Assembly: GCA_907165275.2 (NCBI GenBank)
Contig: OU015673.1
Coordinates: forward strand, 3,363,001-3,427,000
Origin: Zygaena filipendulae
Lineage: Eukaryota > Arthropoda > Insecta > Lepidoptera > Zygaenidae
Reading direction: 5' to 3'
Length of the DNA: 64,000 bases
Positions 6,311-63,866 of the stretch are shown here, piece after piece (the stretch's first letter is position 1; each line of letters begins with the position of its first letter). The position numbers and the translations under genes were made by a program. The notes under the pieces are model-generated. The model was given only the letters and a program-made list of their open reading frames with translations. It was not told the origin of the DNA and did no database searches.

Positions 6311-6365
6311 TATAGATGATAATGTGATAATGTTCAAGCAATATTAATATTAATTATTATTTCTC

Positions 6366-6452
6366 TACCATGATCTGCTGGACTTTAAACGGGAGTGCTG
6401 GATTCGTATCCAGTTCTTAATTGAAGACCTGTTACTGATCTGTAAGAAACAA
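6366..6452 (-). repeat. Single inverted 153-bp monomer at array edge
   Basis: CTACCATGATCTGCTGGA and GGATTCGTATCCAG are the reverse complement of the monomer words CCAGCAGATCATGGTAG and CTGGATACGAATCC found in the array that follows. The first monomer is therefore inverted relative to the rest. Confidence 0.8.
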
Positions 6453-8956: not shown

Positions 8957-9123
8957 CGTCTGTCTGTCTGTTATAATTTCACGCCTTAACGGTTAAACCG
9001 ATCATTACGAAATTTTGCATACACGTTGCCAGGAATACAGAGAAGGATAAAAGGTACTTGTTATCCCGAAATTTTCGCGGGATCTCAGAAATTAACGTGG
9101 GTGAAACTACGGGGAACAGCTAG
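8957..9123 (+). mobile_element. Helitron-like repeat inserted in the loop
   Basis: It runs from GTCTGTCTGTCTGTTA through TTCACGCCTTAACGG and GAAATTTTGCATACACGTTG to GGGGAACAGCTAG. The CTAG terminus lies at 9120-9123 and the host T follows. It interrupts the end of the 153-bp array and so is younger than it. Assignment to Helitrons rests on the CTAG end and preceding GC hairpin typical of lepidopteran copies. Confidence 0.75.
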
Positions 9124-9435
9124 TTACATAATGAAAATTTCATCTAAATCAGATAAGCCATTTCTGAGATAAGCGTGCACAAAAGCACATGAAAAAAGAT
9201 AAAAATTCTAACAATCATTGTTATGCAGTGCTATTGCGTTGATAAAGGTCCCAATAATATTTTTTGTCGTATATCTCCCATGTACAGACAGCGATCAATT
9301 ACATTTTTATTACATTATTTATAGATTAAAAAGTTACAATCTTTAAGGCATAGTGATCAAGGGTGCACAGAGGCAGCAAGAACGGCAAAACTAAAAAAAA
9401 TAAAAACTAAAAACCAGACGTTGATAACAGTAATT
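9124..9435. other. Loop sequence between insertion and right arm
   Basis: No match to either satellite and no gene recognised. It leads into a TAG microsatellite at the inner edge of the right arm. Confidence 0.55.

Positions 9436-9467
<32 letters not shown>
9436..9467. repeat. (TAG)n microsatellite
   Basis: Ten or so uninterrupted TAG units sit at the inner border of the right arm. Confidence 0.9.
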
Positions 9468-9470
9468 CAT

Positions 9471-41343: not shown

Positions 41344-41445
41344 TCAGGCATTCAAAGTTCTCGTTTTAATCCTTCTTTTTCTCCATGAAGAAGATCGTTT
41401 CTGTCCAGTCAATAACCCTTTCCCACTGCACATTTTTCTTATCAT
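41344..41445 (-). CDS. Basic 33-residue final ORF of unit 1
   Basis: It starts 16 nt after the last micropeptide stop and ends in TGA. The product opens MIRKMCSGKGLLTGQKR and continues through SSSWRKRRIKTRTLNA. It has no LDPTG motif and about one third Arg/Lys. Units 2 and 3 carry equivalent basic ORFs in the same relative place, also with an L-x-x-S/G...RK+RK core, so it is likely translated. It corresponds by position to the last, longer ORF of beetle and fly transcripts, whose function is less certain. Confidence 0.75.
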   Translation of the reverse strand: MIRKMCSGKGLLTGQKRSSSWRKRRIKTRTLNA

Positions 41446-41461
41446 ATTTAACTGTATTTAA

Positions 41462-41494
41462 TCAGTAAATTTCAGTCGGGTCCAGACCGACCAT
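41462..41494 (-). CDS. mlpt: Micropeptide MVGLDPTEIY (G to E variant)
   Basis: Fifth ORF, 10 residues plus TGA, with the best start context of the unit (ACCATGG). The usual glycine is glutamate, a change also found in unit 3. Confidence 0.88.
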   Translation of the reverse strand: MVGLDPTEIY

Positions 41495-41510
41495 GGTTCA
41501 TTCGTTTGTC

Positions 41511-41552
41511 TCAATATTTTCCTGTCGGATCGAGAGCACGTCCTTTGGGCAT
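41511..41552 (-). CDS. mlpt: Micropeptide MPKGRALDPTGKY
   Basis: Fourth ORF, 13 residues plus TGA. The N-terminal half is basic (K3, R5). The start context is weak (C at -3). Confidence 0.9.
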   Translation of the reverse strand: MPKGRALDPTGKY

Positions 41553-41587
41553 CCGTTTTCTATAGTGATAAGATTGAACGGGAATGT

Positions 41588-41629
41588 TTAATACACACCG
41601 GTAGGATCCAGAGTCTTCGCGGAAGTCAT
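41588..41629 (-). CDS. mlpt: Micropeptide MTSAKTLDPTGVY
   Basis: Third ORF, 13 residues plus TAA, only 4 nt after the second stop, so reinitiation rather than scanning past is required. A is at -3. Confidence 0.93.
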   Translation of the reverse strand: MTSAKTLDPTGVY

Positions 41630-41633
41630 CGTT

Positions 41634-41672
41634 TCAATATTGACCTGTGGGGTCTAGTGCGACGTCGGCCAT
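41634..41672 (-). CDS. mlpt: Micropeptide MADVALDPTGQY
   Basis: Second ORF, 12 residues plus TGA, 8 nt after the first stop. The LDPTGQY ending is the one found in fly peptides. G lies at -3 and +4. Confidence 0.93.
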   Translation of the reverse strand: MADVALDPTGQY

Positions 41673-41680
41673 TCCCGAGC

Positions 41681-41719
41681 TCAATAAAGCCCCGTGGGGT
41701 CTAGAGTGAGGATATCCAT
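41681..41719 (-). CDS. mlpt: Micropeptide MDILTLDPTGLY
   Basis: This is the first ORF of unit 1 in transcript order: 12 residues plus TGA. The ATG has G at -3 and G at +4. It carries the exact LDPTGLY heptapeptide at residues 6-12. Confidence 0.93.
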   Translation of the reverse strand: MDILTLDPTGLY

Positions 41720-41990
41720 GTCTGCTGACTGCTCGTAGTTGAACACAGAGAAGCACAAATGTTTAGAAAGTTCGTACACTGTCACGTAGCGAGGAGTGAA
41801 CGTTTTGCACTGTGTACACGCGTGTGCGCCGGGCTTGGCAATGCGAGTCGCGGCGCTTGCGCTCTGTTATATCATGAAAGGAGCGCGCCGCGTCGACGCC
41901 ATCTGGCGGCGAGCGGACGACCGCCCCGTCTCGCCGTCGAGTTTTCCGATGACCGGTCACTGATAGGGTTAGGTTTTGCGTCCTAGTTGT
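41720..41990 (-). promoter_or_regulatory. Probable promoter/5' UTR region of unit 1
   Basis: The 270 bp upstream of the first ORF are strikingly CpG-rich compared with the window. A TATA-like GATATAAC lies at 41866-41873 on the minus strand, about 150 nt before the first ATG. Plus and minus frames here (41759-41986, 41763-41960) are open because of the base composition. Confidence 0.4.
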
Positions 41991-42068
41991 TTTCCCGAAC
42001 GATATCGTTACGTTAACGCACAGAAAACTAAGAAACGGAATCTTATGTCACGTGGTTATGCGAACCTG

Positions 42069-42216
42069 GGGCCCTATTTTTGAATCGTTCGAATTACTTT
42101 CACGCACGGAATCGCGAATTCAGGTGCGAATCCTCATACATTTTTTAAGCATTCACGCGTGAATCTTGCAATTCCGTCTGCGAATAGTAATTCGAGCGAT
42201 TCAAAAATCGATCCCC
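42069..42216. mobile_element. ~148-bp MITE, GGGG termini, copy 2
   Basis: GGGGCCCTATTTTTGAAT at the left, inverted as GATTCAAAAATCGATCCCC at the right. Same inner layout as 20840-20983. It lies immediately upstream of the unit 1 promoter region. Confidence 0.85.
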
Positions 42217-42394
42217 TGGATTATTGATTGGTCGATTTTACGTGACCTCGTGAGTCGTGACATGACGTTCCTTCCTTTCGATTTCCTTTATGTCGATTTA
42301 TTTTGTTTTTACTCTGAGTCTGGGTGTTTAGTATGTACCCACCTATCTTAAGTATGTATTTCCAAAAAAAGTAGGTAGTTGTATAAGTATTATT

Positions 42395-42480
42395 TCATTT
42401 GTCTGGCACCCGTAGTACAAGCTCTGCTTAGGGACCAGGTGGCGCTTTGTGACGATGTCCAAATATTATTATTATTATTT
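42395..42480 (+). mobile_element. Retroposon tail ending in (ATT)n
   Basis: GGCACCCGTAGTACAAGC, GGGACCAGGTGGCGCTTTG and GATGTCCAAAT run into ATT repeats (42463-42479). No body is seen upstream. Confidence 0.6.
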
Positions 42481-42737
42481 AAGCGTTTAGATTGACATCT
42501 ATGTACTTTTTGTGTATCTCCCATGATCCTGACCGGGGTAGTTACTTTTGTACACCAATGATCTCGACCGAAAACCGATGCTGTGGTGCACAAATCCACA
42601 GCACGGTGATGAGATAGTGACCTTTTAGGTCATAGGGACACACTGAACAAATATTATTGTGTTTTTATTTCCGAATACCTGCATAAGAACCTACTTTATT
42701 CTTTTTTTCTTTCTAACAAAAATCGTAATCCTTAGGA

Positions 42738-42906
42738 AAGTTAGTTTGTTTGTTACGCTTTCACGCCTTAACGGCTTAACCGGTCATCATGAAATTTTGC
42801 ATTTACGTTGTCAAGGGTACAGAGAAGGACATAGGGTACTTTTTATCCCGGAATTCTTGCAGGAACTCCGAAATTAACGCGGGTGAAACAGTGGGGAACA
42901 GCTAGT
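42738..42906 (+). mobile_element. Helitron-like repeat, 5' end clipped
   Basis: GTTTGTTTGTTACGC, CACGCCTTAACGGCTTAACC and an end of GTGAAACAGTGGGG with AACAGCTAG. Confidence 0.8.
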
Positions 42907-42944
42907 CATAATAATAATTAATATTTAATACATATCAATATAAA

Positions 42945-43230
42945 TGCGAAAGTAATCCTGTTTGTCCGTCTGTTACCTTTTACGCCTTAACTGCTTAACC
43001 GATCGTCATGAAATTTTGTAAACACGTTGTCAGATACAACAAAACTAGCTCTTCCCCGCGATTTTATCCACGGTAATTTCGGAGTTCCCGTGGTAACATC
43101 CAAACATCCACACTTTCACATTTATAATATTAATAACTTTCCCGCGCGTTTTCACTCGCGATAATTTCGGAGTTCTCGCGGGAATTCCGGATTACAATAT
43201 AGCCTGTGTTACTCGGGGATAATGTACCTA
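42945..43230. mobile_element. Cluster of three Helitron-like fragments
   Basis: A plus fragment (42945-43035) runs from AATGCGAAAGTAATCC to ACACGTTGTCAG. It is followed by minus fragments at 43045-43132 (CTAGCTCTTCCCCGCG to TTTATAATATTAA) and 43138-43225 (CTTTCCCGCGCG to GCCTGTG). Confidence 0.65.
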
Positions 43231-43247
43231 GCATTCTAATGGTAATA

Positions 43248-43435
43248 GTACATTGTTATCCTAGGGGTGAAAGTAAAGACTCATTTAGTCCCTCGATCTA
43301 TTGGCGCCCGAGCGTAGCGACTAATTAAGTCCCGTCTCGGGACTAATTAAGTCTTTCTCCCGAGGATAACACTGAGTGTGCTTTTCATTACGAATGCAAG
43401 GAAAGTCAAAATAAAAATAGGAATTAGCTTAAGAA
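43248..43435 (+). repeat. Dispersed repeat, copy of 29260-29450
   Basis: GTACATTGTTATCCTAGGGG, AGTCCCTCGATCTATTGG, GTCTTTCTCCCGAGGATAAC and GCATTCGTAATG in inverse order on the other strand. A 3' partial copy recurs at 43648-43730 (TCTTTCTCCCGAGGATAAC, TACGAATGCAAGGAAAG). Confidence 0.75.
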
Positions 43436-43569
43436 AAAGTGAGTAAATTTTATTTTAATTAATACCTACTTAAACTTTACGTTATTTCAATTTTACATCG
43501 CGCTGGCTGTATAGAAAGTTGGAACATGGTTCAATAGAAATGTGAAAATAGACCTTGAATAGATATTTT

Positions 43570-43592
43570 GATTGATTGATTGATTGATTAAT
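43570..43592. repeat. (GATT)n microsatellite
   Basis: Five GATT units. CAGTTGTCAGTTGAAAGCG then recurs at 43601 and (as CAGCTGTCAGTTGAAAGCG) at 43831, each followed by TCTCCCTAGGGCTG. Confidence 0.85.
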
Positions 43593-43735
43593 AATTTGAC
43601 AGTTGTCAGTTGAAAGCGATTCTCCCTAGGGCTGAAAAGTGTTACTTGTCTTTCTCCCGAGGATAACACTGTGCTTTTCATTACGAATGCAAGGAAAGTC
43701 AAAATAAAAATAGGAATTAGCTAAAAAAAAATATG

Positions 43736-44835
43736 AGTGAATTTTATTTTACATAAATCAACCATTAGGTGTGCTGTGCCAGTAAGTATGCCCCCTATGA
43801 CATAAAAAAAACTTGAGTTTCTGCAGTATCCAGCTGTCAGTTGAAAGCGATTCTCCCTAGGGCTGAAAAGTGTTACTTTCAACCCGCTTCTCAGGCAACT
43901 TCAGACCTACTTTCCGAGTATGAGTAATGAAAAAATAATTTGCAATTACAGTAATGACATTAGATTTCTTCACTCGTTCTGCATGAGTCTCACTCTTTTA
44001 AAACGTATTGGCTACATACTCTTTAGTCTCAAAGAAAATATAATCGCATCTTCTGTGTCGCTTTAAAACTGTCACTTCGCGAAAAATCAATTCAAAAGAA
44101 AAAATGTATATCTCTAAAAAGGTTTTATCATGTTCGTTATGCAACATTGTATCGAAGCTTTCGACCATTGCATTGCGATGTTTGTGTTTGCTTTAATTGA
44201 TGGTAACTTTTTTCCCCTATGTCCTATTTCGATGAAACAAAGCCTATATGTTGCTCCAGACTTAGCTAAATCTACTACTGAAAACTGCATGACAACCCGT
44301 TCAGTAGATGCGGAGATTATTGCGAATAGACAGACAGACAGAAAAGAATTTAAAACCTTTTTTTTGGGCTTGGTTATTCTTTTTTTATCACCCCTCTCAA
44401 TTTTAGGTAAAAATATTCAATGTACAGAATCGCGGATTCTACTCATTTATTATAGTATAGATATTAGATAGCTAGACACTGGACAGTCCGCGACCAGCGC
44501 GAGTTAGGAGAATAGTTGGGATGCGACATCCATAGTATAGTTTAAAATGCATGTAGAACAGCGAAAAGTATGGAGTATTTATGAGTCATGCACATTTTTT
44601 TTTTATAAATATATTTCTTACCCAGTGCATTCAACTTTCTCTAATTACGTATACAATGATACTTTGAACGTCTCGTTAGCGACTACCTTTTGTTCTAAAT
44701 ATTGAAATTATTATGTACCTACTATAATCAATTGACGCTAAACTATGCTGTCCAGAATATCTTGAGGGATAACCGACACTTGAAGAGTTTCTTTCTATAT
44801 ATATTATATGTTGACATTATCGAGGTTAGTTTGTC
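43736..44835. other. Intergenic DNA, no firm gene
   Basis: The plus 113-codon frame at 44130-44471 contains a GACAGACAGACAG repeat stretch and no known domain; it is more likely transposon-derived or chance. Confidence 0.4.
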
Positions 44836-44842
44836 GGTTTAA

Positions 44843-45481
44843 TAGGGTACTTGCATGAATTTTTTTTTTTTCAGTCTATTTTAAAGATATATGGCCTAAT
44901 TAAACAAAGCAAGAAAAAGAAAAAAAATATATGCATAAATTAATGAAATAGAGCGTTTCAAAGTTCCTACTTTTAGACCTTACCGCCAAAACGCGGAATG
45001 ACGTCACTTGTTCAAAATTACGGCTTATTAATCTGTGATAGAAATGTCAATGTCGTATTGACAGGGTCATGTGACACTGACAGACAGATAACTTCAATAT
45101 CCAAAAGCGAAATTAAGGTTGAACAGTGTCGATTTACTTCTACAAGTTCCAGTAAAGAATCGAAATGCATAATATTACCGATGCATTTTAAACTAAAACA
45201 CTTCAGAAAATGGAAAATATGCGTCGACTGTATGCACTTAGTTTCTTTTGCCTTCTCTGAAATAGGCAAATGTTTCCTAAAAAAATAAAAGTGACGTCAT
45301 GTGTCAAGTTTGGCTGTGATTGGTGTTTCGTTGCAACGTTCCGTTTCACAAAATTAAAAGTTGCATATTTTGGAAACTATTGAAATTTTTTTAGTAAATC
45401 TTTCACGATAACGCTTTTCTAAGGCTCTATTTTTGAAATATTGACACAATTTCTAATTATAAATTCCATGCAAGTACCCTA
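44843..45481. mobile_element. 639-bp TTAA-flanked MITE
   Basis: TTAA at 44839-44842 and 45482-45485 flank TAGGGTACTTGCATG and its exact inverse CATGCAAGTACCCTA. TGACGTCACT and AGTGACGTCAT form an inner inverted pair. Frames of 96 and 83 codons inside overlap on opposite strands and are not called. The TTAA duplication points to a piggyBac-type source. Confidence 0.85.
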
Positions 45482-45967
45482 TTAAACAAATACATTTGAT
45501 TTGCCTTCATCAATCCCTCATCTTTACTGAAAAAAGAGCCATGTATAAGGCATAGACGACTGACTGACTACAATTTTATCTAAATAATAAGATAATTATT
45601 TGTGTTTCTTAACCGGCGCTAGTCTAACAATCTTATTCAACATTAAAATAATTTCCATTTGCAAAAGATAGCTTGAAAAAATTATTAATTGACGTTTAAT
45701 TAATTAGACTTAAAACGTTTACAATATCTTAACGAAAGGAAAACAAAACCTCCTCCTTTTTTTGAAGTCTGCAAAAAAAATACTTTTCAAATTTACTTCT
45801 AGCACTGAGGGCAATGACCACAAATATCACGATTAAGTGATATTTAATTAAAACCGGACGATACTTAAAATTAAACAATTATCAATTTTCATTGAATTTA
45901 AATAATATTTGGGATTGAAATACAAATTATTACATACATAAAATGCAAACGATTTATTATTAATTGT

Positions 45968-46142
45968 CTTAATATATATAAATCACGTGTCACGTTGTTT
46001 GTCCGCGATGGACTCCGAAACTACTGAAGGGATTTTGATAAAATTTTGTAACCATTTATAATATGGTCCAACTTAAAAGATAGGATAGTTTTTATCCCGG
46101 AATGCCCGCGGGAACTCCGGCACTAATGCGGGGAACAGCTAA
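45968..46142 (+). mobile_element. Helitron-like repeat, diverged
   Basis: TTAATATATATAAATCACG start, TGTCCGCGATGGACTCCG middle, GCCCGCGGGAACTCC and GGGGAACAGCTAA end. Confidence 0.65.
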
Positions 46143-46154
46143 TCACCGTAAACT

Positions 46155-46425
46155 ACTATAGGGGTACAAAGAAGGACATTGAGTACTTTTTTCCCGCAAC
46201 CTCCGAAATTACCGCGGATGAAATCGCGGGGGACAGCTAGTATTATATAAAAATTAATCCCTATTTCCCTTGGTCACGGTATCACGCGTGAACGGCTGAA
46301 CCAATTTCACTATTTTTTTTTTGTTGTGTTTGTTATTGTAAGGAAAACGAGAATATGAAAGAGATTTGGAGTTCCTGCGGAAATTCCGAAACTCACGTGG
46401 ATGAAACCGCGGGGCACAGCTAGTT
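46155..46425 (+). mobile_element. Two further Helitron-like copies in tandem
   Basis: The first (to 46239) ends GATGAAATCGCGGGGGACAG and CTAG. The second (46244-46424) begins AAAAATTAATCCCTATTTCC and ends GATGAAACCGCGGGGCACAG and CTAG. With the copy before them they form a head-to-tail run. Confidence 0.7.
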
Positions 46426-46899
46426 ATCTATACAAATATTAATACAAGATAACTAGAGTAAAAACAAAATACAATAATATAATTAGTTGTAGGTGCTACG
46501 CCACGCCATTGCTGTTCTGGCAAGTAGGTTAAGCGCAAGAAAGCGTCAGAGAGTTGCGAACTATCCATATGATGATGCGCCGAGTGCCGGTTGCTATTTG
46601 CAGGCTACTCTATACAGCCAATGTTTTAAAATAATTAATATTAATGGCTAGACGTTTCCGGTAGATTCCACCGGTGTAGATTTTTAACTGTCCATACAAA
46701 CTTAAAACTCCCATTTCAATCCTCTCGGGAGAGATTTTCAACTTAAACCGACAAAAACAGTCCTAAGTATCGACGATCTATGTTCTCTTTGGTTTGATGC
46801 ATTTTTTGTGAATATTCTGTTCCTATCAAATTTCCCTTGAAAAATAGCTTCTAGCATTGACCGCCACTTGCCAAGTATTTAATTTATATACCATGCTAG

Positions 46900-47095
46900 C
46901 TAGCTGTTCCCCGCGGTTTCGCCCGTGTGAGTTTCGGAATCCCCGCAGGATTTCCAAAGTAGCCTAATTTACTTTTTATATATAACATCAGCTAATTAGC
47001 AGTGAAAGTTCCGTCAAAATCGGTCCAGCCGTTCATGCGAGATAATGTGATCAAGGAAAATAGGGATCCATTTTTATAAATAGGTGTAGATTATA
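46900..47095 (-). mobile_element. Helitron-like repeat, reverse
   Basis: CTAGCTGTTCCCCGCGGTTTC, then CAAAATCGGTCCAGCCGTTC and ATTTTTATAAATAGGTGTAG. It resembles the 46244 subfamily in its 5' AAATAGGGATCC. Confidence 0.75.
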
Positions 47096-47251
47096 TTGTA
47101 ACCTACCACAATTTGAAAATACCTTCTTATCTCTATTAGAAAAACGACAAAGTGTTCCTTAAAAAAGTTCCTAAAGTGCGCATTTTAAGTCTTTGGGTGG
47201 GACAAAAGGTTTCATAAAGATACAAAGACCCCGATTGAGTTAGCTCTTCAT

Positions 47252-47427
47252 AATCCTACTAATATTATAAATGTGAAAGTGTGGATGTTTGGATGTTTGT
47301 TACTCAATCACGCAAGAACGGCTGAACGGATTTGGATGAAATTTGGCATTACATAGGGTACTTTTTATCCCGGAATTCCCACGGGAACTCTGAAATTACC
47401 GCGGGTGAAACCGCGGGGTACAGCTAG
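47252..47427 (+). mobile_element. Complete Helitron-like repeat
   Basis: TCCTACTAATATTATAAATG start and GTGAAACCGCGGGGTACAG with CTAG end. This is the best-preserved 5' end in the window, including the leading TC. Confidence 0.88.
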
Positions 47428-47429
47428 TA

Positions 47430-48236
47430 TTTTAATAATATTTAATATCACCAGCATACACAAACACAGCAGCACAGCATTGGGTCCAGTTGTCTACAAG
47501 AAAACTAATTCAATCGCAAACGAGACTGAAAATTTCTGTAATTGTAATTTTGAATTTCTGCGGCATAGTGACCCGATTTTGCTATAGAAGCCTACATAAA
47601 AAAATTAAAAAACGAAAAAAAAAATCCTTTTTGTTATCCATGGTTGATATTAGCTCCGGGATAATAAGTTACTCAGGGGTTCTTTAATTTTGTATCGGTG
47701 GAAGAAATTTTAGAATCGGCTCCAATATTTTCCGAGATTACTCACAGACCAGTTTTCCCTTTTTAAGTCTTTATAAGTATTTTATATGTAGTTATAAATT
47801 TATAATGTAACAGAATACCTACACATAAATATATTTTATGTGTAAGGTACTCTGTCGTTTCACAACCTATCTACCTACACTTACTTACCTCTATATTTAC
47901 AGTCTAAATTAGAAATGTCAAAGTCAACGAACTGCGAATGGAGGGGAACGTTTCTAGCGCTCGAGCGAGTGAAAGGTTTACGCGGAAAATGCATTTCCGG
48001 GCGGTGGAAATTGTTTTATCGATAATGAAATTATTCTAATGCTAGTGCATGACTGACATTATCATACAAAGCCAGTTGGTCCAAAACAACTACAAATACC
48101 AAATATACCTTAGATACATTAAAAAATTCATGTTGCTAATACTGTCGCTTTTCTAAACAAACCAGAATAAATAAATATTTATATACAATATACATATTTA
48201 CGTAAATTCAAATATTAATCACAAAAATTGTTATCG
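47430..48236. other. Intergenic DNA, no firm gene
   Basis: Frames at 47405-47687 begin in the preceding repeat and lack motifs. No exon seen. Confidence 0.5.
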
Positions 48237-48237
48237 T

Positions 48238-48312
48238 GATACGGGGATCCAACCCGTGACACCTGTGACCTGACGCAGTATTCAAGTTTGTTAATCACTA
48301 GGTCGCCAGTCA
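48238..48312 (-). mobile_element. tRNA-derived SINE head, eroded
   Basis: On the minus strand, ACTGGCGACCTAGTGATTA is A-box-like and GGGTTGGATCCCCG is B-box-like, at about tRNA spacing. No intact tRNA fold is supported. Confidence 0.5.
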
Positions 48313-48639
48313 GTCTATTGTAATTAAATCTGACTTAAGACTGACTTAAGTCTTTATAATGCATACGGTCGTTGGAAAGTTACTGACAGATCTAGTAACT
48401 TCTGAACGACTTGACCCATTGAGGTCATGTTTGCCCAAAATATTTGTTTCGTTATGACGACGAGGGTTCATTCATCTTTACATTAGGTATATATGTATTT
48501 TGATAACTAATCCACATACAACACATTAATCGTAGAATTTATTTAACATTGGGCAGAAAATTAAAGTCGTAAAACTGGTATTTTAATTTTAAATATTTAA
48601 TTAATAAAATTAATAAGAATTAATCATTAAAACTAAGAC

Positions 48640-49227
48640 AACTGAAAGTGTATTAATATAACAGTCTTCTAATTTGCGAGGAGTTTGATTGTATTTTTGA
48701 CCAAAGAATTTATTAACATTAAGTTTTAATTAAGTAGGTAACAAAAAGTTATCAAATTTTTATTTATCAAAATTATTTACGATTGAAGTCACAAGAATTA
48801 CAGTAAGTATAATTTATTAAATATTAACTAAAGTATTAAAGGTAATCCCAATCTAGTTGAATTTTCTCAAACCCTTCATAATCTTGTAAGATACTAGCAA
48901 TTCCCTCGCGGTTTCACCCACGGTAATTTCGGAGTTCCTGCGGGAATTTCAATTTTTGACAATTTTTTTTCCCTTTGACACTCCCGTTCTGTTGGTAAAA
49001 GAATTTTAAAGTAGTAGTTCAGTAGATCCAGAGATTACCCCTTACAACGTCACAAACTCACAAACTTTACCTCTTTATAATATTAGAAAAGATAATAAAA
49101 ATGAATTATTGATTAAAATCTTAGAAAACATTAATGAATACCCAGTAAACATTACAGTCTTTGGTTTCTAATTACACTATTACAATTAATAATATGAAAA
49201 TGATATAATTCAACAAGTATTATTAGA
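48640..49227 (-). other. Probable 3' UTR / downstream block of unit 2
   Basis: ACAGTCTTCTAA (48661) and ACAGTCTTTGG (49154) match sites downstream of unit 3 at 52119 and 52471, so the duplicated block extends past the coding part. A minus-strand AATAAA lies at 48709-48714. The block is interrupted by a reverse Helitron-like repeat. Confidence 0.6.
48891..49095 (-). mobile_element. Helitron-like repeat within unit 2 3' region
   Basis: CTAGCAATTCCCTCGCGGTTTC start, ATTACCCCTTACAACGTCAC, and CTTTACCTCTTTATAATATT end. Its interior matches the copy at 61320-61535. It is absent from the paralogous unit 3 region. Confidence 0.75.
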
Positions 49228-49335
49228 CTAATATTGTATTGGTTTTCTTTTCTTTCTGTTTGCTGGTATTTCACGACTAATAGTTAATCTACTGAGAAGG
49301 TAAATTCTATTGCAAAGAAAGACTGACGCAACCAT
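49228..49335 (-). CDS. Basic 35-residue final ORF of unit 2
   Basis: It begins MVASVFLCNRIYLLSRL and continues TISREIPANRKKRKPIQY before TAG. It lacks LDPTG and is strongly basic at the C-terminus. The paralogue at 52521-52631 shares ISRE[IV]PANRKKRK with mostly synonymous codon differences, which argues for translation and selection. It lies about 390 nt after the last intact micropeptide ORF. Confidence 0.78.
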   Translation of the reverse strand: MVASVFLCNRIYLLSRLTISREIPANRKKRKPIQY

Positions 49336-49593
49336 ATTTTAAACAATGAATATTGTAGAATAAATTGAAATGCAGAAATTGATCACATTAAACTGTCTTA
49401 CAAAATTTCATTAGATTAGAAATTTAATGACCATTTTTAAACACATTTCTATATCATATAATATTGTTATTATTGTATATGTATATTAATGTTATTTAAA
49501 TATTATTACTTATGTGGTAAGTAGCAAGAAATATTTATGTAAATTGTTATTTTATAAAAAAAATTTAGTCCTTCATTGAAATATCAACAAAAT

Positions 49594-49657
49594 ATCTCCT
49601 AAACGCTGTCAGATCAATTCGTCAATAATACACCCTCTTTAGGAATTAAGAACAATG
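49594..49657 (-). pseudogene. One or two eroded micropeptide copies
   Basis: TTCTTAATTCCTAAAGAGG and GTGTATTATTGA (49622-49657) align with a F-L-D-P-T-E-V-Y pattern if one inserted base is ignored, but the ATG is broken (ATTG). GATCTGACAGCGTTTA next to it may be a second remnant. Confidence 0.45.
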
Positions 49658-49727
49658 TTTTTTAAATTTTAAAATAAACCTAAACAATTAGTAGTAAACA
49701 ATCCATCAGGATGAATTGTTTTTATTT

Positions 49728-49763
49728 TTAATACAGACCCGTCAGATCTAAAACGATAAACAT
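49728..49763 (-). CDS. Micropeptide MFIVLDLTGLY (diverged)
   Basis: 11 residues plus TAA. It keeps the GLY end but has P to L inside the motif, as does the copy at 49826, so the change predates their separation or arose twice. Confidence 0.65.
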   Translation of the reverse strand: MFIVLDLTGLY

Positions 49764-49774
49764 CCTACTTGCTT

Positions 49775-49800
49775 TCAATAAAAAATCTGTAATCAGGTTT
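49775..49800 (-). pseudogene. Eroded micropeptide copy
   Basis: CCTGATTACAGATTTTTTA with TTGA aligns with the LDLTD-Y pattern after a 2-nt loss; the reading frame and start are gone. Confidence 0.4.
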
Positions 49801-49825
49801 AATCTGATGCAAAATACAAATGTCA

Positions 49826-49861
49826 TTAATAAATATCGGTAAGATCAAGGGCGAAAGTCAT
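49826..49861 (-). CDS. Micropeptide MTFALDLTDIY (diverged)
   Basis: 11 residues plus TAA. The motif has changed at two places (P to L, G to D), so signalling activity is uncertain. Frame, start and stop remain intact. Confidence 0.65.
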   Translation of the reverse strand: MTFALDLTDIY

Positions 49862-49943
49862 CGTGAAAAAAACAAATAAAACTATTTAAAAACTTAACCA
49901 ACAATAAAACACTTAGCAATAAATAGAAAGTTTACCTATATTT

Positions 49944-49976
49944 TCAGTAAATTCCAGTCGGATCCAACACGAACAT
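49944..49976 (-). CDS. Micropeptide MFVLDPTGIY
   Basis: Fourth ORF, 10 residues plus TGA, only 24 nt after the third stop. It differs from its neighbour by one conservative residue. Confidence 0.9.
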   Translation of the reverse strand: MFVLDPTGIY

Positions 49977-50000
49977 GATGCACCACAGATTGAAAACTTT

Positions 50001-50033
50001 TCAGTAAATACCAGTTGGGTCAAGAATGAACAT
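50001..50033 (-). CDS. Micropeptide MFILDPTGIY
   Basis: Third ORF, 10 residues plus TGA, start context CAAAATG with A at -3, the form most copies of units 2 and 3 share. Confidence 0.9.
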   Translation of the reverse strand: MFILDPTGIY

Positions 50034-50119
50034 TTTGACTTTTCAGGATTTTTCTTCTTCTTTTACTTTTAAATAAACGATTTTAGTTTATTTATATGCG
50101 CCGTCGAAAATCTTCCGGG

Positions 50120-50152
50120 TCAATAAATGCCAGTTGGATCCAATAGGAGCAT
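50120..50152 (-). CDS. Micropeptide MLLLDPTGIY
   Basis: Second ORF, 10 residues plus TGA, 81 nt after the first stop. Confidence 0.9.
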   Translation of the reverse strand: MLLLDPTGIY

Positions 50153-50233
50153 TTCGGTGTAAATATTTAGCCTTTGATTTTTCAAATTGGAGGAAAAATA
50201 TTCTTCCGTTTAAACTTCACAAGCGTTTCCTTC

Positions 50234-50266
50234 TTAATAAATACCAGTAGGATCTAAAGCATCCAT
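50234..50266 (-). CDS. Micropeptide MDALDPTGIY
   Basis: First ORF of unit 2, 10 residues plus TAA, start context ATCATGG with A at -3. Confidence 0.9.
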   Translation of the reverse strand: MDALDPTGIY

Positions 50267-50360
50267 GATTGTAATGAAATGTCAATGTACAATATCGATC
50301 TTGTTTACGTCAAATCGAGAGTGAGCCCGGTCAAAGCCGCCACCGACGAGTGCACTATGA

Positions 50361-50412
50361 AGCGTTTGTCGAATGACTGGATGCGTGCGGATCCACGTGC
50401 CATACATTTATA
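50361..50412 (-). promoter_or_regulatory. Core promoter of unit 2 (TATA, CACGTG)
   Basis: On the minus strand TATAAATG (50412-50405) is followed by CACGTG (50399-50394) and CATCCAGTC, then ATTCGACAAACGCT. The A of CCAGTC (50378), an initiator-like site, is 34 nt from the TATA start. The first ATG is 112 nt downstream. The same order and spacing are found at unit 3. CACGTG is a bHLH-type E-box, but it lies between TATA and start. Confidence 0.7.
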
Positions 50413-51720
50413 CAGCCCCATTTTTCGAGTAAATTTTTTGCCACTTTATAGTACCGGGAAGCCGGGAAGCTTTTTTACCCGGCCCCATCCTATAGCGATG
50501 TTGCAGCTAAAAAAGAAATAAGTTTTAATAGAAGCGAAAGATCACCGACTCACTGACTTAACACGAAATCTATAGAAAACTAGACCTATGAAGCTGAAAT
50601 ATGACAGGTTCATAAGTAGGAAACGTCAGCTTAGATAGGATTTCACGGAGTTCCCGCGGGAATCCCCAAATATAACGCGGGTTAAACCGCAGAGAACAGG
50701 CATCTAGCGCTTTTACGTTTATGATTGTAGTGGTTTTAGATTATTAAAATATTGTGGCTGTTTTATTTGTTCTGCGCTATAAATTTTAAGCTATCATTTA
50801 ATTAGAATTTATAGGTATAAAATTCTATCTAAAACGTAGGTATAGTTTTATTAACACGATATCAATTTCAAAAGAATTTGCTATTTGTTTTCTAAAATAC
50901 GTACGAAATAAACTTGAAGACGGCTATACGGATTTGAATTTAACTAATTTATTTATTTAAGCTAGGCTAGCTTAGGCGGACTTCAGGCCATAATGTCATT
51001 CTCTACCAGTCAACCTTCACGATGTTCAGATGTCTAGTGTCTCCCATATGTATTATGTTACGGTTAACGTGATAAATACGTGAATAATAAATAATAATTA
51101 CCGGGATTTATTAATAACTCACGCACAACTCGGTAAAAGTCATTAATTTATCTTATTCACTGGCGGTACATTCTTCCATACAAGCCCAAAAGCCCGGACT
51201 GCCTATAGCGGAAACACTTGCTACAGAATATCAAATATTTTAAAAATTATATCTTTTTAAAGTTTATAAGTATAAATACTTATTAAAATATTTGATACTT
51301 GGCTACTTGACTACTACGGCTTGGATGGAGGTACCGCCACTGATCTTATTAACTTTGCTATGTACATATCAATGTGGACTCCATAATAAGATGCAGAGCA
51401 AATCGAATTCTAGATTATTAGGTTAGGTTTGAACCTACTGAACCGACTTTTATCTTTTAAAAAGACCACGGAGTTTCGCAAAGCTGAGTTCCTATTTTAT
51501 GTGTGCACTATTTTATTTGTCTTTGACGCATCGCCAGCCGCTGCGCGCTCGCGCTGCCGCGACACGCTCGTTACGCTCGCTCGGCTCGCGGGTCGTGGTT
51601 AGCAGTACAAACTCAACCTTGCCTACCGTACGTCGTAGATCCGCACTAATTTTCAGGCTCCCTCGGCAACTCGTTGTGTCGGCATATAAAATATCAAATG
51701 TAATCTGCTATCGGTGAAGT
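50413..51720. other. Spacer between units 2 and 3
   Basis: It holds a Helitron-like 3' fragment (50640-50703, ending AACCGCAGAGAACAGGC) and a CpG-rich patch at 51525-51620 with GCTCGCGCTGCCGCG. No gene is supported; the plus frames at 50279-50521 and 51499-51717 are composition effects. Confidence 0.5.
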
Positions 51721-51724
51721 GATT

Positions 51725-51803
51725 TTTAATTCTGTTCCTAGGGATCGAACCTGCGACACGTGGCATGGCACTCAGAATCACTTACCACTACACCAACGAT
51801 GCT
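51725..51803 (-). mobile_element. tRNA-derived SINE head
   Basis: On the minus strand GTTGGTGTAGTGGTAAG is a good A box and GCAGGTTCGATCCC a near-perfect B box, about 35 nt apart. The cloverleaf stems do not close well, so a SINE is more likely than a tRNA gene. Confidence 0.65.
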
Positions 51804-52089
51804 GTCATTAGTGTACCTACTTATTTTTTTTAAGCATCACATTGTTAATCTAAGTCACCGTTTAATATAAAACTTATAATTTTTAAGTTTTCCTATAGAG
51901 CATAATAATATGTATTATGATCCTCTTCTAAAGATGAAAATGACAAACTAGCTGCAATGGATGCTCTAATACGGGGAAACTACGTGGTAAACTTCGTGCG
52001 CCTAGGTTCCTATATGAATTAGCGTTGTGGGTAAAAATTCAAAGACACAGGTATTAAATATTCAAAAGATTTAATCAACAAAAATAAGT

Positions 52090-52520
52090 GACATTTAGCC
52101 AAAAAGAGTATTAAACTAACAGTCTTCTAAAATTACAAGAGTATATTTTTATTTTGCTGAAAATTTTATATTAAAATTAAAAATGCATTTTACATTTAAA
52201 ATAAATTAAAGTTAAATAATTATACTTAATTACACCAAAAGTTCTGCGTTACCAGACAAGAAGTTAACGGATGTTTAGTTTAGAATTGAAGTCACATTAA
52301 ATAAATTATAGAGTTTCAATTAATATATTCAATAAATAAATATGTACCTAAATTAATAAAGGTAACTTCAACTAAGCTAAATTGAACATTGTCTAGAAAA
52401 CATTAAAGTCTTCAAAGTTGTAATATAACATCAGACTTAAAAAACATTAAAGAATGCGTAATAGACATTCACAGTCTTTGGCTCCTATTTACACTATTAC
52501 ATTACTTTTTACAAATTATA
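52090..52520 (-). other. Probable 3' UTR of unit 3
   Basis: ACAGTCTTTGG (52471) and ACAGTCTTCT (52119) match sites downstream of unit 2. A minus-strand AATAAA is at 52148-52153, roughly 370 nt past the basic ORF. Confidence 0.55.
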
Positions 52521-52631
52521 TTACATTAGAATAGGTATTAGTTTTCTTTTCTTTCTATTAGCTGGTACCTCCCGACTGATAGAAATTAATCTACGGCGAA
52601 GATAAATGCAACGGAAGCCTGTAGAAACCAT
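52521..52631 (-). CDS. Basic 36-residue final ORF of unit 3
   Basis: It opens MVSTGFRCIYLRRRL, has ISISREVPANRKKRKLIP and ends in TAA. Against the unit 2 copy the core differs by codons CGT/CGG, GAA/GAG, GCA/GCT and AAC/AAT, all silent. The C-terminal Arg/Lys cluster resembles a nuclear or nucleolar signal, but such a short basic peptide could act otherwise. Confidence 0.78.
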   Translation of the reverse strand: MVSTGFRCIYLRRRLISISREVPANRKKRKLIPILM

Positions 52632-52694
52632 GTCTAAAACAAATTACTTAGAACTAATAAATGCGTAAATTAATCTAAATAAACCATATATTAT

Positions 52695-52727
52695 TTACAC
52701 TTCATTAGGATCCAAAGACAATCACAT
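52695..52727 (-). pseudogene. Eroded micropeptide copy, nonsense codons
   Basis: It has an ATG directly followed by TGA, then TTGTCTTTGGATCCTAATGA (L-S-L-D-P-N-E), with the final tyrosine changed to a stop. The length in codons is still that of an intact copy. Confidence 0.7.
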
Positions 52728-52781
52728 TTATAATTTGACGATGCTGGATTAAAAAAATATAGATCTATAGTTTTCTCATTA

Positions 52782-52805
52782 CTAATAGACCTCTGTGTAC
52801 CACTT
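52782..52805 (-). pseudogene. Eroded micropeptide 3' half
   Basis: ACAGAGGTCTATTAG keeps T-E-V-Y-stop; the Leu-Asp-Pro part and start are gone. Confidence 0.5.
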
Positions 52806-52839
52806 TGATAAGTTGGTGAAAATCATAAAATTCCCAACC

Positions 52840-52875
52840 CTAATACACACCCGTGGGGTCTAAACTGAACAACAT
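52840..52875 (-). CDS. Micropeptide MLFSLDPTGVY
   Basis: Last intact micropeptide ORF of unit 3; 11 residues plus TAG. Confidence 0.9.
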   Translation of the reverse strand: MLFSLDPTGVY

Positions 52876-52894
52876 TTTTGTTTTTGAAATTAAT

Positions 52895-52913
52895 AAAAAA
52901 AAAAAAAAAAAAA
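52895..52913. repeat. 19-base homopolymer between two ORFs
   Basis: Nineteen A on the plus strand, i.e. a T/U run in the transcript, in the 38-nt gap between two micropeptide ORFs. It may be an artefact-prone or length-variable site. Confidence 0.85.
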
Positions 52914-52949
52914 TTAGTAAACTCCAGTGGGATCCAAAGTCAACAACAT
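52914..52949 (-). CDS. Micropeptide MLLTLDPTGVY
   Basis: 11 residues plus TAA, intact despite lying between eroded copies; start context AAAATGT. Confidence 0.9.
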   Translation of the reverse strand: MLLTLDPTGVY

Positions 52950-52969
52950 TTTGAACATAAAAACTTAAG

Positions 52970-52998
52970 CACCTAGTCGGATCTAAAGTGATAAATAT
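52970..52998 (-). pseudogene. Eroded micropeptide copy, start lost
   Basis: ATATTTATCACTTTAGATCC reads as I-F-I-T-L-D-P with ATG changed to ATA. After CCGACT the G-X-Y-stop part is replaced by AGGTGCTTAAG. Confidence 0.7.
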
Positions 52999-53033
52999 TT
53001 CGGTACACAATTTTTTTTAAACCAAAGATAATA

Positions 53034-53070
53034 TCAATAAACTTCCGTAGGACAAGTAAAAAAAAAACAT
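53034..53070 (-). pseudogene. Eroded micropeptide copy with frameshift
   Basis: The end CCTACGGAAGTTTATTGA still spells PTEVY, but the Leu-Asp codons are damaged and the ATG lies out of frame behind a run of T. Confidence 0.7.
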
Positions 53071-53087
53071 AAACTTAATTACCGTAA

Positions 53088-53123
53088 TTAGTACACTTCT
53101 GTAGGATCTAGAGTGATGAACAT
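53088..53123 (-). CDS. Micropeptide MFITLDPTEVY
   Basis: 11 residues plus TAA; glutamate form combined with the valine ending. Confidence 0.88.
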   Translation of the reverse strand: MFITLDPTEVY

Positions 53124-53166
53124 TTTGCAAATTTAAAAATACACAAAACAAAAATAGGAAAAATTC

Positions 53167-53202
53167 TCAGTAGATTTCAGTAGGGTCTAAAGTGAGCAAC
53201 AT
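53167..53202 (-). CDS. Micropeptide MLLTLDPTEIY
   Basis: 11 residues plus TGA, 34 nt after the preceding stop; second EIY form in this unit. Confidence 0.88.
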   Translation of the reverse strand: MLLTLDPTEIY

Positions 53203-53236
53203 ATTTTATAAAATCAAAAATAAACCAATAACGTAC

Positions 53237-53272
53237 CTAGTACACTCCAGTAGGATCTAGAGAGAAAACCAT
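53237..53272 (-). CDS. Micropeptide MVFSLDPTGVY
   Basis: 11 residues plus TAG, start context AAAATGG. Confidence 0.9.
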   Translation of the reverse strand: MVFSLDPTGVY

Positions 53273-53349
53273 TTTGCTAAATAGGAAAATTACAGTTCAG
53301 TATGTTTCATGTTATGTGTTCTGTGAAATTTCATGAAATGTCAAATAGT

Positions 53350-53385
53350 CTAATAAATTTCAGTAGGATCGAGAGTGAAAGCCAT
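53350..53385 (-). CDS. Micropeptide MAFTLDPTEIY
   Basis: 11 residues plus TAG. Glutamate replaces glycine, as in the last ORF of unit 1. Confidence 0.88.
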   Translation of the reverse strand: MAFTLDPTEIY

Positions 53386-53467
53386 ACTGATTCAATTATT
53401 AAAAAACACGAAAAAATAAATTGGATTTGATAAATCAATATTGACACTTTTCACTTGAAGTCTATCT

Positions 53468-53500
53468 TCAGTACACTCCTGTGGGGTCTAAAACGAACAT
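53468..53500 (-). CDS. Micropeptide MFVLDPTGVY, copy b
   Basis: 10 residues plus TGA; 166 nt after copy a, the widest gap in the unit. Confidence 0.93.
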   Translation of the reverse strand: MFVLDPTGVY

Positions 53501-53666
53501 TTTGATGCACTTTGCAAATTTTCTTCAATATATTCAAATCTCGTGGCCGAAGCACGTAACGATAGAAGCTGGAATACTTCAGTCGAAACCAATTTAATAA
53601 TTTGGATTAATTTCTTCTTTTTTTTCTGATTTAAAAAAAGAATTTCTTGGATAAAAATATCCTAAG

Positions 53667-53699
53667 TTAATAAACGCCAGTAGGGTCCAGCACAAACAT
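53667..53699 (-). CDS. Micropeptide MFVLDPTGVY, copy a
   Basis: 10 residues plus TAA. It encodes exactly the same peptide as 53468-53500 although eight of ten codons differ, all synonymously. Confidence 0.93.
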   Translation of the reverse strand: MFVLDPTGVY

Positions 53700-53788
53700 T
53701 TTGAAGCACTGACGAATTGAACTTGGTAATTTGAAGAAAAATATTCGTATCGTCTTATTGAGATATTTGCTTCACGACTTTTTCTTAT

Positions 53789-53821
53789 TCAATAAATGCC
53801 AGTTGGATCCAAAGTCTTCAT
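53789..53821 (-). CDS. Micropeptide MKTLDPTGIY
   Basis: First ORF of unit 3, 10 residues plus TGA, start context ACCATGA. The equivalent first ORF of unit 2 also ends LDPTGIY. Confidence 0.92.
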   Translation of the reverse strand: MKTLDPTGIY

Positions 53822-55130
53822 GGTTGCGATGGAATTTGTGCGGTTCAGAATAAAACACTATCGATCTTATTTACGATGGGGTCGAGTGTGCGCGTTCAGT
53901 GCCGCTTAGGCCGTGTATTCGTGAGAGCGTTTATCGAACGACTGGTGTTACTGAGGCCACGTGCGCCGCATTTATATCGGCTGACGGCTCGCGCGGGCCG
54001 ACGAATTTTTTACGCGATTCGATATTTGGAAGCTTTCAGCCGGGTGGTTTTCCGACTCGCCCCCGCTCCAACCATATTATATTTTTTTTTTTGCAATAAC
54101 TCTATTTCTCATAAAAAATATCGCAGCCTGTCTCCGGCCAAATGTTGTGGAATAAAAGTTTTGTACCTAATTATTATTGATTTTTTATTTAATTCATGAA
54201 TTGGCCAATCTTAGATGTGGCCACGTGATACCTGCGTCATACATACATACATTGTTTTATGCATCAAGCAAAAAAATAAAATAATACCTACGTTAAGCAG
54301 ATTGACCCTGATTTTTTAATAACGACAACAACGTTTCAAATCTTATTTGAAAAATAAGAATAAGATCAAAACATCCATGGTTTTAATTTTTACAAAATTA
54401 GTATTACAAAATTTTATAAACAAAATAGTCAAAAGTAAAGCTTGGGTGACATCAACAATCATTTCGTTCGGGACAGAAATGCGTTAAGACTTTTTACACT
54501 ATCTAAGCAAAAACAAAACTGACCCGTTTTGTTCACTTTGACTAAAAATAAGTTGATTCAATAAATCTGACGTGCTTAAATATCTTCGATGCCAGCTGCT
54601 GTACCTATAACTGCATAGTGCAATGTGGTATTTGTGTTTGTCAAAGAATTAGCGTTGTTCAAATTATCACACATTCAACAAAGTTTTCTTTGGTTAATGT
54701 TTTAAAAAAGTCTGTGATAATTGGGTTGATAAATAATTTATCTAAGCACACCTATATTTTTTCGAAATGGGTTTGAAATAGCATAGGTTATACAGGGTGT
54801 AAGGTTAAACAATTGACTTAACTGAAGGATTGCACTGAACGGGTGTTCAGTATCCGACTCTCGTAAATATAATGAAATAATAAATTAAAAAAAAAAACAA
54901 AAAATATTTTTTTCATGTAAAAATAAAATACATATTCAACAAAATTGATCGCGCATGTTGCCGATGCGCTGAAAAATCATACCCATCATCATCTTTCCTT
55001 TGTATTGTCAATGACGCACTGACAAAATATGTAATTTAAAGGTCATTCACCCGTGTAAATTCACTATTTCGTTTAAGGTTTCCTATGTTATATATTAGTG
55101 TTTTTAATGTATATTTTTATGTTACATGTA
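53822..55130. other. Upstream region of unit 3, then intergenic
   Basis: Includes the 5' leader and promoter; from about 54080 on it is AT-rich with no gene. The plus frames at 53876-54199 and 53899-54099 are GC-driven shadows over the promoter. Confidence 0.5.
53926..53976 (-). promoter_or_regulatory. Core promoter of unit 3 (TATA, CACGTG)
   Basis: TATAAATG (53976-53969), CACGTG (53963-53958), CCAGTC (A at 53943, 33 nt from the TATA start) and GTTCGATAAACGCT match unit 2 in order and spacing. The first ATG is 122 nt downstream. GATCGATA recurs in both 5' leaders. Confidence 0.7.
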
Positions 55131-56340: not shown

Positions 56341-56765
56341 AAATAATAATAATAATAATAATCCACATCACAACACACAGATCCACTTGATCCCACAGTA
56401 AGCTATTATTAGCTTGTGTCGTGGAAACCAAGCAAACGTGGTATATACTACATAGAATTACTTATATATTATACTATAGATATATAATAATAATAATAAT
56501 AATAATAATCCACATCACAACACACAGATCTACTTGATCCCACAGTAAGCTATTATTAGCTTGTGTCGTGGAAACCAAGCAAACGTGGTATATACTACAT
56601 AGAATTACTTATATATTATACTATAGATATATAAACACACCCAGACTGGAAAATGGAACCCTGTGTTCATCACACAAAGTCCACCCCCGCCGGGAATCGA
56701 ACCCGGAACCCCTTGATTAGCGGGTAGGCATGGTGACCTCTGCGCCAATCGGGTCGTCGTGTCGG
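56341..56765 (-). mobile_element. tRNA-derived SINE with duplicated tail
   Basis: On the minus strand GATTGGCGCAGAGGTC gives an A box and GGGTTCGATTCCCGG a perfect B box, followed by a body ending in (ATT)n. The 147-bp tail, including (ATT)n, occurs twice in tandem (CCACATCACAACACACAG at 56363 and 56510), nearly identical. Confidence 0.85.
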
Positions 56766-63172: not shown

Positions 63173-63386
63173 CTAGCTGTGCCTCGCGGTTTCACCCGTG
63201 ATAATTTCGTAGTTACCGCGGGAACTCCGGGATAAAAAGTACCCTATGTCCTTCTCTGTACCCCTGACAACGTGCATGCCAAATTTCATTCAAATCCGTT
63301 CAGCCGTTTTTGCGTGATTGAGTAACAAACATCCAAACATTTAAACATCCAAACATCCACACTTTCACATTTATAATATTAGTTGG
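63173..63386 (-). mobile_element. Helitron-like repeat, first of a tandem pair
   Basis: CTAGCTGTGCCTCGCGGTTTC to CACATTTATAATATTAG. It matches the 36645 copy closely, including ACCCCTGACAACGTGCATGC. Confidence 0.82.
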
Positions 63387-63390
63387 ATTA

Positions 63391-63866
63391 GCTGTGCTCC
63401 GCGGTTTCACCCGTGGTAATTTCGGAGTTCCCCAGGGAATTCCGGAATAAAAAGTACCCTATGTCCTTAACTGTCCCCCTGACAACGTGCATGTCAAATT
63501 TCATCCAAATCCGTTCAGCCGTTTTTGCGTGATTGAGTAACAAACATCCAAACATCCAAACATCCAAATATCCAAACACCCAAACATCCAAACATCCACA
63601 CTTTCACATTTGGACGTAGATAATCAATAGTGTGTTAACCCACACTGGAGAAATTTTGATTAAATTAAAGTTTTAAAATTATAGCGCCATTTTGTGTTCA
63701 ATTTTTTTATGTTCAATATTTAGTTACATATTTAAACAATGTAATGAGGTAAACACATAATTAAGAAACGTTCTGTAACTCTCAATAAATCGTTCCGAAT
63801 CTATAAATTCATTTTGTGGGTTAACATGTTATTGCTTATCAGCGTCCATTTATAATATTAGTAGGA
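63391..63866 (-). mobile_element. Second Helitron-like copy, split by a MITE
   Basis: GCTGTGCTCCGCGGTTTCAC runs to ACACTTTCACATTT (63608); TTTATAATATTAGTAGGAT resumes at 63847. Between them sits a MITE. Its CATCCAAA array has about seven units, more than its neighbour. Confidence 0.85.
63612..63845 (+). mobile_element. ~235-bp MITE, copy 4, nested
   Basis: GGACGTAGATAATCAATAG to ATTGCTTATCAGCGTCC, inserted in the 5' end of the preceding repeat with ATTT on both sides as the target duplication. Confidence 0.87.

Follow-up and report, generated by a model that had tools for sequence, protein, structure and literature searches.

A 64-kb stretch of Zygaena filipendulae DNA (contig OU015673.1, positions 3363001-3427000; hereafter the window) carries on its minus strand 20 intact micro open reading frames (ORFs) of 10-13 amino acids (aa) each, 18 of which end in the LDPT[GE]xY motif of the micropeptide gene known as pri, tal or mlpt. 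They lie in three clusters, A, B and C, which in our judgement probably (roughly 80%) correspond to three separately transcribed lepidopteran pri/tal/mlpt genes: an ordinary one, A, with five type-A ORFs and a type-B ORF, and two extra ones, B and C, built of type-A ORFs only. This family is a founding micropeptide case, and it operates the Shavenbaby (Svb) switch in segmentation, legs and epidermis.

Results

A codon-run search of both strands of the window found 18 stretches encoding LDPT[GE]xY on the minus strand, all 18 followed directly by a stop codon, and none on the plus strand. Two further minus-strand micro-ORFs (B5 and B6, Table 1) have LDLT in place of LDPT. An initial annotation, made from the letters alone, had described 18 such peptides of 10-13 residues plus two LDLT variants in three same-strand clusters, and the search bears this out; its suggestion that the ORFs outnumber those described is likewise supported by the 20 intact copies. 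Cluster A (41719-41462) holds five ORFs (four LDPTGxY and one LDPTEIY), cluster B (50266-49728) six (four LDPTGIY and the two LDLT variants) and cluster C (53821-52840) nine (six LDPTGxY and three LDPTExY), such that each cluster carries several short type-A ORFs of the tal/pri/mlpt kind.

Dinucleotide shuffling of the minus strand, repeated 200 times, produced no micro-ORF of the form LDPT[GE]xY-stop. Across the 366-Mb assembly, an exact codon-pattern search for LDPTG only (LDPTG..Y), the counts of which are lower bounds, returned at least 25 matches, 14 of them being ORFs of clusters A-C; none of the 11 places found elsewhere in the genome had an ATG-started ORF ending in Y-stop. The flanks, 100 kb on either side, contain no LDPT[GE]xY run, and a profile of the 20 copies gave four matches there, with E values of 3.3 or worse. 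Within the window the same profile recovered two decayed copies in C, one doubtful copy, and three plus-strand matches (E 1.7-2.1). The pattern [LF]DPTG-hydrophobic-Y-stop also occurs in six viral contigs, once in each (five FDPTGLY, one LDPTGIY). These matches are unclustered and have no ATG in the preceding open stretch; a viral origin or mimicry was rejected, and they were retained as a specificity control. On the plus strand at 56342-56634, two repeats of a 147-bp unit encode LDPTVSYY, and LDPTGSYY stretches similar to it are present on other contigs; judged by this similarity, the resemblance to the motif seems to come from a dispersed repeat.

Three signs that are independent of the search motif point to the micro-ORFs being coding. 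All 20 copies have an in-frame ATG three to six codons before the motif with no intervening stop, against a background of 4.5-4.8%; this ATG was not a search criterion, although the formal P of 1e-27 treats these related copies as more independent than they are. The start context is also distinctive, with an A at -3 in 16 of 20 micro-ORF starts compared to 36% of the 994 minus-strand ATGs, and CAAAATG in 6/20 compared to 23/994. Finally, the predicted leaders and inter-ORF spacers (1438 nucleotides (nt) in total) contain five sense ATGs versus 19 antisense, stray sense ATGs numbering none in gene B against 6.8 expected (P 0.001) and four in gene C against 12.1 expected (P 0.007).

The motif itself makes use of every Leu (six), Pro (four) and Thr (four) codon, and each of the three stops follows it in some copies. 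The proportion of synonymous differences among the copies (pS) is 0.74-0.87, which is near saturation; the copies must therefore be old, and a recent duplication introduced by assembly is impossible, contrary to the artefact that the initial annotation had named as a possible refutation. That annotation also held that no frame reaches 40 codons. This is correct for ATG-started sense ORFs beginning inside the predicted transcripts, the longest of which is 33 aa, but not for stop-to-stop frames. An ordinary protein-coding explanation was rejected, as Pfam at the curated cut-off returned nothing for the type-B ORF and nine of the 28 stop-to-stop frames of at least 85 aa. Rfam at the gathering threshold gave no matches, and no tRNAs were found.

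Only cluster A is followed by a candidate for the second kind of peptide made by this family, a C-terminal (type-B) peptide with the consensus GREETSSCRRRR (PMC6124123). Across all six frames of the window, this consensus is best matched by GQKRSSSWRKRR, with a score of 32/63 (runner-up 27). It lies in the ORF at 41445-41344, which starts 16 nt after ORF A5. A shuffled consensus reached this score in 0/300 trials within 500 nt after A5, yet in 21/300 when the entire window was taken. No such ORF was found within 500 nt after B or C, where the best scores are 16 and 17 (shuffled mean after A, 15.6). The stop of the type-B ORF is position 41344, where the initial annotation had begun its region without including this ORF in its account.

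The ORF series of gene A thus reads 12, 12, 13, 13, 10 and 33 aa within 376 nt, with spacers of 4-35 nt. The Bombyx mori tal-like cDNA (NM_001099847) has ORFs of 12, 11, 11, 10 and 32 aa within nt 80-368 (PMC6503385), and shares with gene A a run of short type-A ORFs closed by one type-B ORF (32 and 33 aa, respectively), but has one type-A ORF fewer. Because of its type-B-like ORF and its Bombyx tal-like layout, gene A is likely, by its sequence, to be an ordinary lepidopteran tal gene with one additional type-A ORF; together with the motif ORFs, these features uphold the tal/pri/mlpt identity first proposed. Its predicted leader of 123 nt is free of ATGs. The start assigned to gene A is the weakest of the three, the promoter having been picked by eye and not being recovered by a TATAWAW scan. 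A palindrome, TGACCGGTCA, consisting of two nuclear-receptor half-sites back to back, occupies 41950-41959, some 110 nt ahead of the start guessed for this gene.

Genes B and C have in common the sequence TATAAATG-N4-GCACGTGG, the initiator-like CCAGTC, a leader, and their first ORFs. Local alignment of their promoters and leaders scored 78, against 19.6 for shuffled sequence (z 17.9; 0/500 shuffles as high), and the first inter-ORF spacer scored 32 against 18.8 (3/500 shuffles as high). In contrast, homology between the promoter of gene A and those of B or C was not detectable by local alignment (A-B z -1.0; A-C z 0.0). Since the shared promoter, leader and first ORFs align at z 17.9 and neither B nor C aligns with A better than chance, B and C are, on this alignment evidence, a sister pair in which the promoter was duplicated along with the gene and which later diverged in ORF number. 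Both predicted leaders are ATG-free (112 nt in B and 122 nt in C), and the spacers between ORFs measure 24-86 nt in B and 34-166 nt in C. As both encode type-A peptides and neither is followed by a type-B ORF, we predict that B and C are additional, separately promoted, type-A-only pri/tal-like paralogues. The description of the locus as three tandem mlpt units therefore stands as to the three clusters but not as to their equivalence: the type-B ORF and the Bombyx layout are features of A alone, and B and C form a separate type-A-only sister pair with which A has no detectable non-coding similarity.

The peptides of B and C also differ from those of A ahead of the motif. Position 2 is F or L in 10 of the 15 B/C peptides and in none of the five in A (Fisher P 0.03), for which base composition is partly responsible. 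Hydrophobic residues make up 25/38 of the linker in B/C compared to 4/20 in A (Fisher P 0.002), again partly owing to base composition (binomial P 0.02 for B and 0.08 for C). It is possible, going by these residues, that the B/C peptides have a different mature N-terminus from those of A. In gene B, an in-frame ATG at 49826 overlaps the stop of B5 (TAATG) and would lengthen B6 to 32 aa.

Table 1. Positions of the micro-ORFs, decayed copies and predicted promoters within the window
Feature	Positions	Strand	Peptide or remarks
Type-B ORF, gene A	41344..41445	-	MIRKMCSGKGLLTGQKRSSSWRKRRIKTRTLNA, 33 aa; partial consensus match
ORF A5	41462..41494	-	MVGLDPTEIY
ORF A4	41511..41552	-	MPKGRALDPTGKY
ORF A3	41588..41629	-	MTSAKTLDPTGVY
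ORF A2	41634..41672	-	MADVALDPTGQY
ORF A1	41681..41719	-	MDILTLDPTGLY
Candidate core promoter, gene A	41840..41871	-	partial TATA (TATAAC) at 41871; guessed start ~41842 (gcATTg)
ORF B6	49728..49763	-	MFIVLDLTGLY, LDLT variant
ORF B5	49826..49861	-	MTFALDLTDIY, LDLT variant
ORF B4	49944..49976	-	MFVLDPTGIY
ORF B3	50001..50033	-	MFILDPTGIY
ORF B2	50120..50152	-	MLLLDPTGIY
ORF B1	50234..50266	-	MDALDPTGIY
Predicted promoter and leader, gene B	50267..50412	-	TATAAATG (50412), CACGTG, initiator-like CCAGTC; inferred start 50378
Possible decayed type-A copy, gene C	52696..52719	-	nhmmer 6.8 bits, E 0.65; alone not significant
ORF C9	52840..52875	-	MLFSLDPTGVY
ORF C8	52914..52949	-	MLLTLDPTGVY; further in-frame ATG at 52958
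Decayed type-A copy, gene C	52975..52995	-	nhmmer 10.8 bits, E 0.034
Decayed type-A copy, gene C	53033..53052	-	nhmmer 11.2 bits, E 0.024
ORF C7	53088..53123	-	MFITLDPTEVY
ORF C6	53167..53202	-	MLLTLDPTEIY
ORF C5	53237..53272	-	MVFSLDPTGVY
ORF C4	53350..53385	-	MAFTLDPTEIY
ORF C3	53468..53500	-	MFVLDPTGVY
ORF C2	53667..53699	-	MFVLDPTGVY
ORF C1	53789..53821	-	MKTLDPTGIY
Predicted promoter and leader, gene C	53822..53976	-	TATAAATG (53976), CACGTG, CCAGTC; inferred start 53943

The surroundings of the locus place the genome among the Lepidoptera. For an LRR gene at position 3349355 of the contig, 13.6 kb beyond the left end of the window, 46 homologues were found at E <=4e-81, the next match being at 5e-35 (among the best 120 of 1106 matches). 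Within the same best 120, 26 of these 46 are named, and all 26 belong to genera that we take to be lepidopteran; the placement follows from this agreement. Two repeat motifs tried as markers of the taxon did not settle it, one giving no match and the other two imperfect matches, and a literature search returned no paper with a repeat of the window. Further to the left are a ZAD zinc-finger protein and a DUF1676 protein, presumably of the Osiris family. Inside the window, a satellite block at 2860-12156 comprises two tandem arrays of a 424-bp unit, one with 7.2 copies at 97% and one with 6.2 at 96%, and between the two lies a 153/460-bp array (6465-8954) containing 14 CACGTG sites. At 63174-63598 a 215-bp element ending in an (CAAACATC)n tail is present in about two copies, and a fragment resembling this element is present at ~50600-50710, upstream of the gene B promoter. 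We take the element to resemble the 3' end of a lepidopteran short or long interspersed element (SINE/LINE).

Discussion

These results suggest a model whereby an ancestral gene was duplicated together with its promoter, leader and first ORFs, and gave rise to B, with six ORFs, and C, with nine intact and two or three decayed ones. Each predicted mRNA would begin about 110-125 nt ahead of its first ORF, such that its first ATG would be that of the first micro-ORF. Since the leaders contain no ATG and few stray ATGs lie between the ORFs, we propose serial translation by leaky scanning and re-initiation, in which ribosomes would work through the ORFs one after another and release many near-identical peptides. 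In other insects, tal/pri peptides bind to Ubr3, a ubiquitin ligase, and cause the proteasome to process part of Shavenbaby/Ovo, turning a repressor into an activator, and the peptides encoded here would be expected to do likewise. Those of B and C may supply the same Ubr3/Svb switch, either at a higher dose or at other times and in other tissues.

Work in other insects provides precedents for such an action. In Drosophila, Pri peptides bind Ubr3 and bring it to Svb, the partial degradation of which yields an activator (PMC11475943); with Ubr3 they also act on Ken (PMC10857433), and ecdysone drives pri via several enhancers that lie as far as 20 kb upstream (PMC8435736). In silkworm BmN cells, a reporter fused to residues 1-28 of BmOVO-1 was lost with two shorter tal-like type-A constructs but not with a type-B construct (PMC6503385). 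A more far-reaching version of the three-gene model can be offered tentatively: Lepidoptera would have gained two extra type-A-only pri genes with their own duplicated promoters, turning a steroid-triggered switch into a three-gene dosage system of 20 LD[PL]T peptides, in which most of those from B and C would carry a new Met-hydrophobic N-terminus and be wired to separate tissues or times, for example wing scale or trichome epidermis.

Several observations weigh against the presence of three separately transcribed genes of this family acting in this way. The similarity of the type-B ORF to its consensus is partial (32/63), stray-ATG depletion in gene A is not significant (1 versus 3.1 expected, P 0.19), and the ratio of non-synonymous to synonymous differences among the copies (pN/pS 0.15 overall; 0.16 in A, 0.17 in B and 0.11 in C), although in favour of coding ORFs, is biased, the motif itself having selected the copies. 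The case for the promoters is subject to similar caution. Identity between B and C in the core promoter (30/43) barely exceeds that in the leader (71/112) and spacer 1 (45/76), compared to 26/33 in ORF1 and 24/33 in ORF2. When up to three mismatches are allowed, two or more matches to TATAAATG-N4-GCACGTGG arise in 8/100 shuffles, although both real sites are exact. TATAWAW is common in the stretches scanned (also at 54418, 53210, 52732, 50813, 50096 and 49556), and A has only a partial match. AATAAA hexamers occur within B (50092) and at its end (49726). An IR1 ecdysone element had no match in the window, and the OVO reporter remained visible in BmN cells given the full-length tal cDNA (PMC6503385).

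The best surviving alternative, which we nonetheless regard as unlikely, is that transcription starts at the C promoter (53.9 kb) and continues as a single long transcript across B and possibly A, in which case the locus would be one gene of 21 ORFs that has alternative promoters. All clusters are indeed on the same strand, and the nearest AATAAA past C9 is some 690 nt downstream (52153). However, a TATA/initiator-like site lies about 110-125 nt ahead of the first ORF of every cluster, though in A it is partial, and the 2.4-kb and 7.9-kb gaps between clusters hold no further copy save the possible decayed one at 52719-52696.

Slightly less probable again is the view that B and C are old duplicates in the course of being lost, pseudogenes expressed trivially or not at all, so that A alone works. 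In its favour are the two or three decayed copies in C, the LDLT variants in B, the lack of a type-B ORF in both, the AT-rich spacers and the AATAAA hexamers within B. Set against the two or three decayed copies, though, are 15 intact B/C ORFs, every one of which has kept a close ATG that formed no part of the search, despite near-saturated synonymous sites, and sense-strand ATGs are significantly depleted in both genes. That the clusters arose in assembly or belong to a mobile repeat, and so are not real tandem genes, is highly improbable, for although satellite arrays lie elsewhere in the window and a 24-nt motif is identical between B2 and C1, these two ORFs differ immediately before that motif, pS among the copies is high, the flanks are dissimilar, and neither LDPTG micro-ORFs elsewhere in the genome nor LDPT[GE]xY in the 200 kb of flanking DNA were found.

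If the three-gene interpretation is correct, the locus departs from its closest known counterparts in several ways. For Bombyx mori, the available text on the tal-like gene mentions no further upstream gene (PMC6503385), whereas here two are predicted. Drosophila pri/tal is likewise a polycistronic gene for LDPTGxY-type peptides with a large regulatory region, but consists of a single 1.5-kb unit encoding four peptides, with enhancers up to 20 kb upstream (PMC11475943, PMC8435736); the present locus has two additional ORF clusters, about 8.5 and 12 kb upstream. The tal gene of Clogmia albipunctata resembles the family plan in having repeated N-terminal LDPTGXY peptides and one C-terminal GREETSSCRRRR-consensus peptide, but differs in having four type-A ORFs on one transcript, spaced by 111-334 nt (PMC6124123). 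In Hemiptera, mlpt has also undergone an order-specific change in its ORF set, but by gaining a new ORF of about 80 aa, smHemiptera (PMC7606980), rather than whole type-A-only gene copies. A literature search, which did not cover dedicated silkworm tarsal-less work, found in the portions of text available no description of extra lepidopteran tal/pri genes, and the words 'lepidoptera' and 'bombyx' are both absent from the main text of PMC6428570. On present comparison, gene A is likely a plain, known member of the family, and what is new is the prediction of B and C as type-A-only pri/tal-like paralogues.

Should B and C be real genes, this insect would have several-fold more copies of the peptide than the known silkworm gene encodes. 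Three genes with 20 type-A ORFs would then offer a natural test of whether the system is read as a dose, of whether the type-B peptide is dispensable, and of the passage of ribosomes across nine ORFs. A tandem duplication of a gene built only of 10-codon ORFs is easily overlooked under an annotation length cut-off, and the locus shows that the motif, the adjoining stop and the depletion of stray ATGs can together expose such genes.

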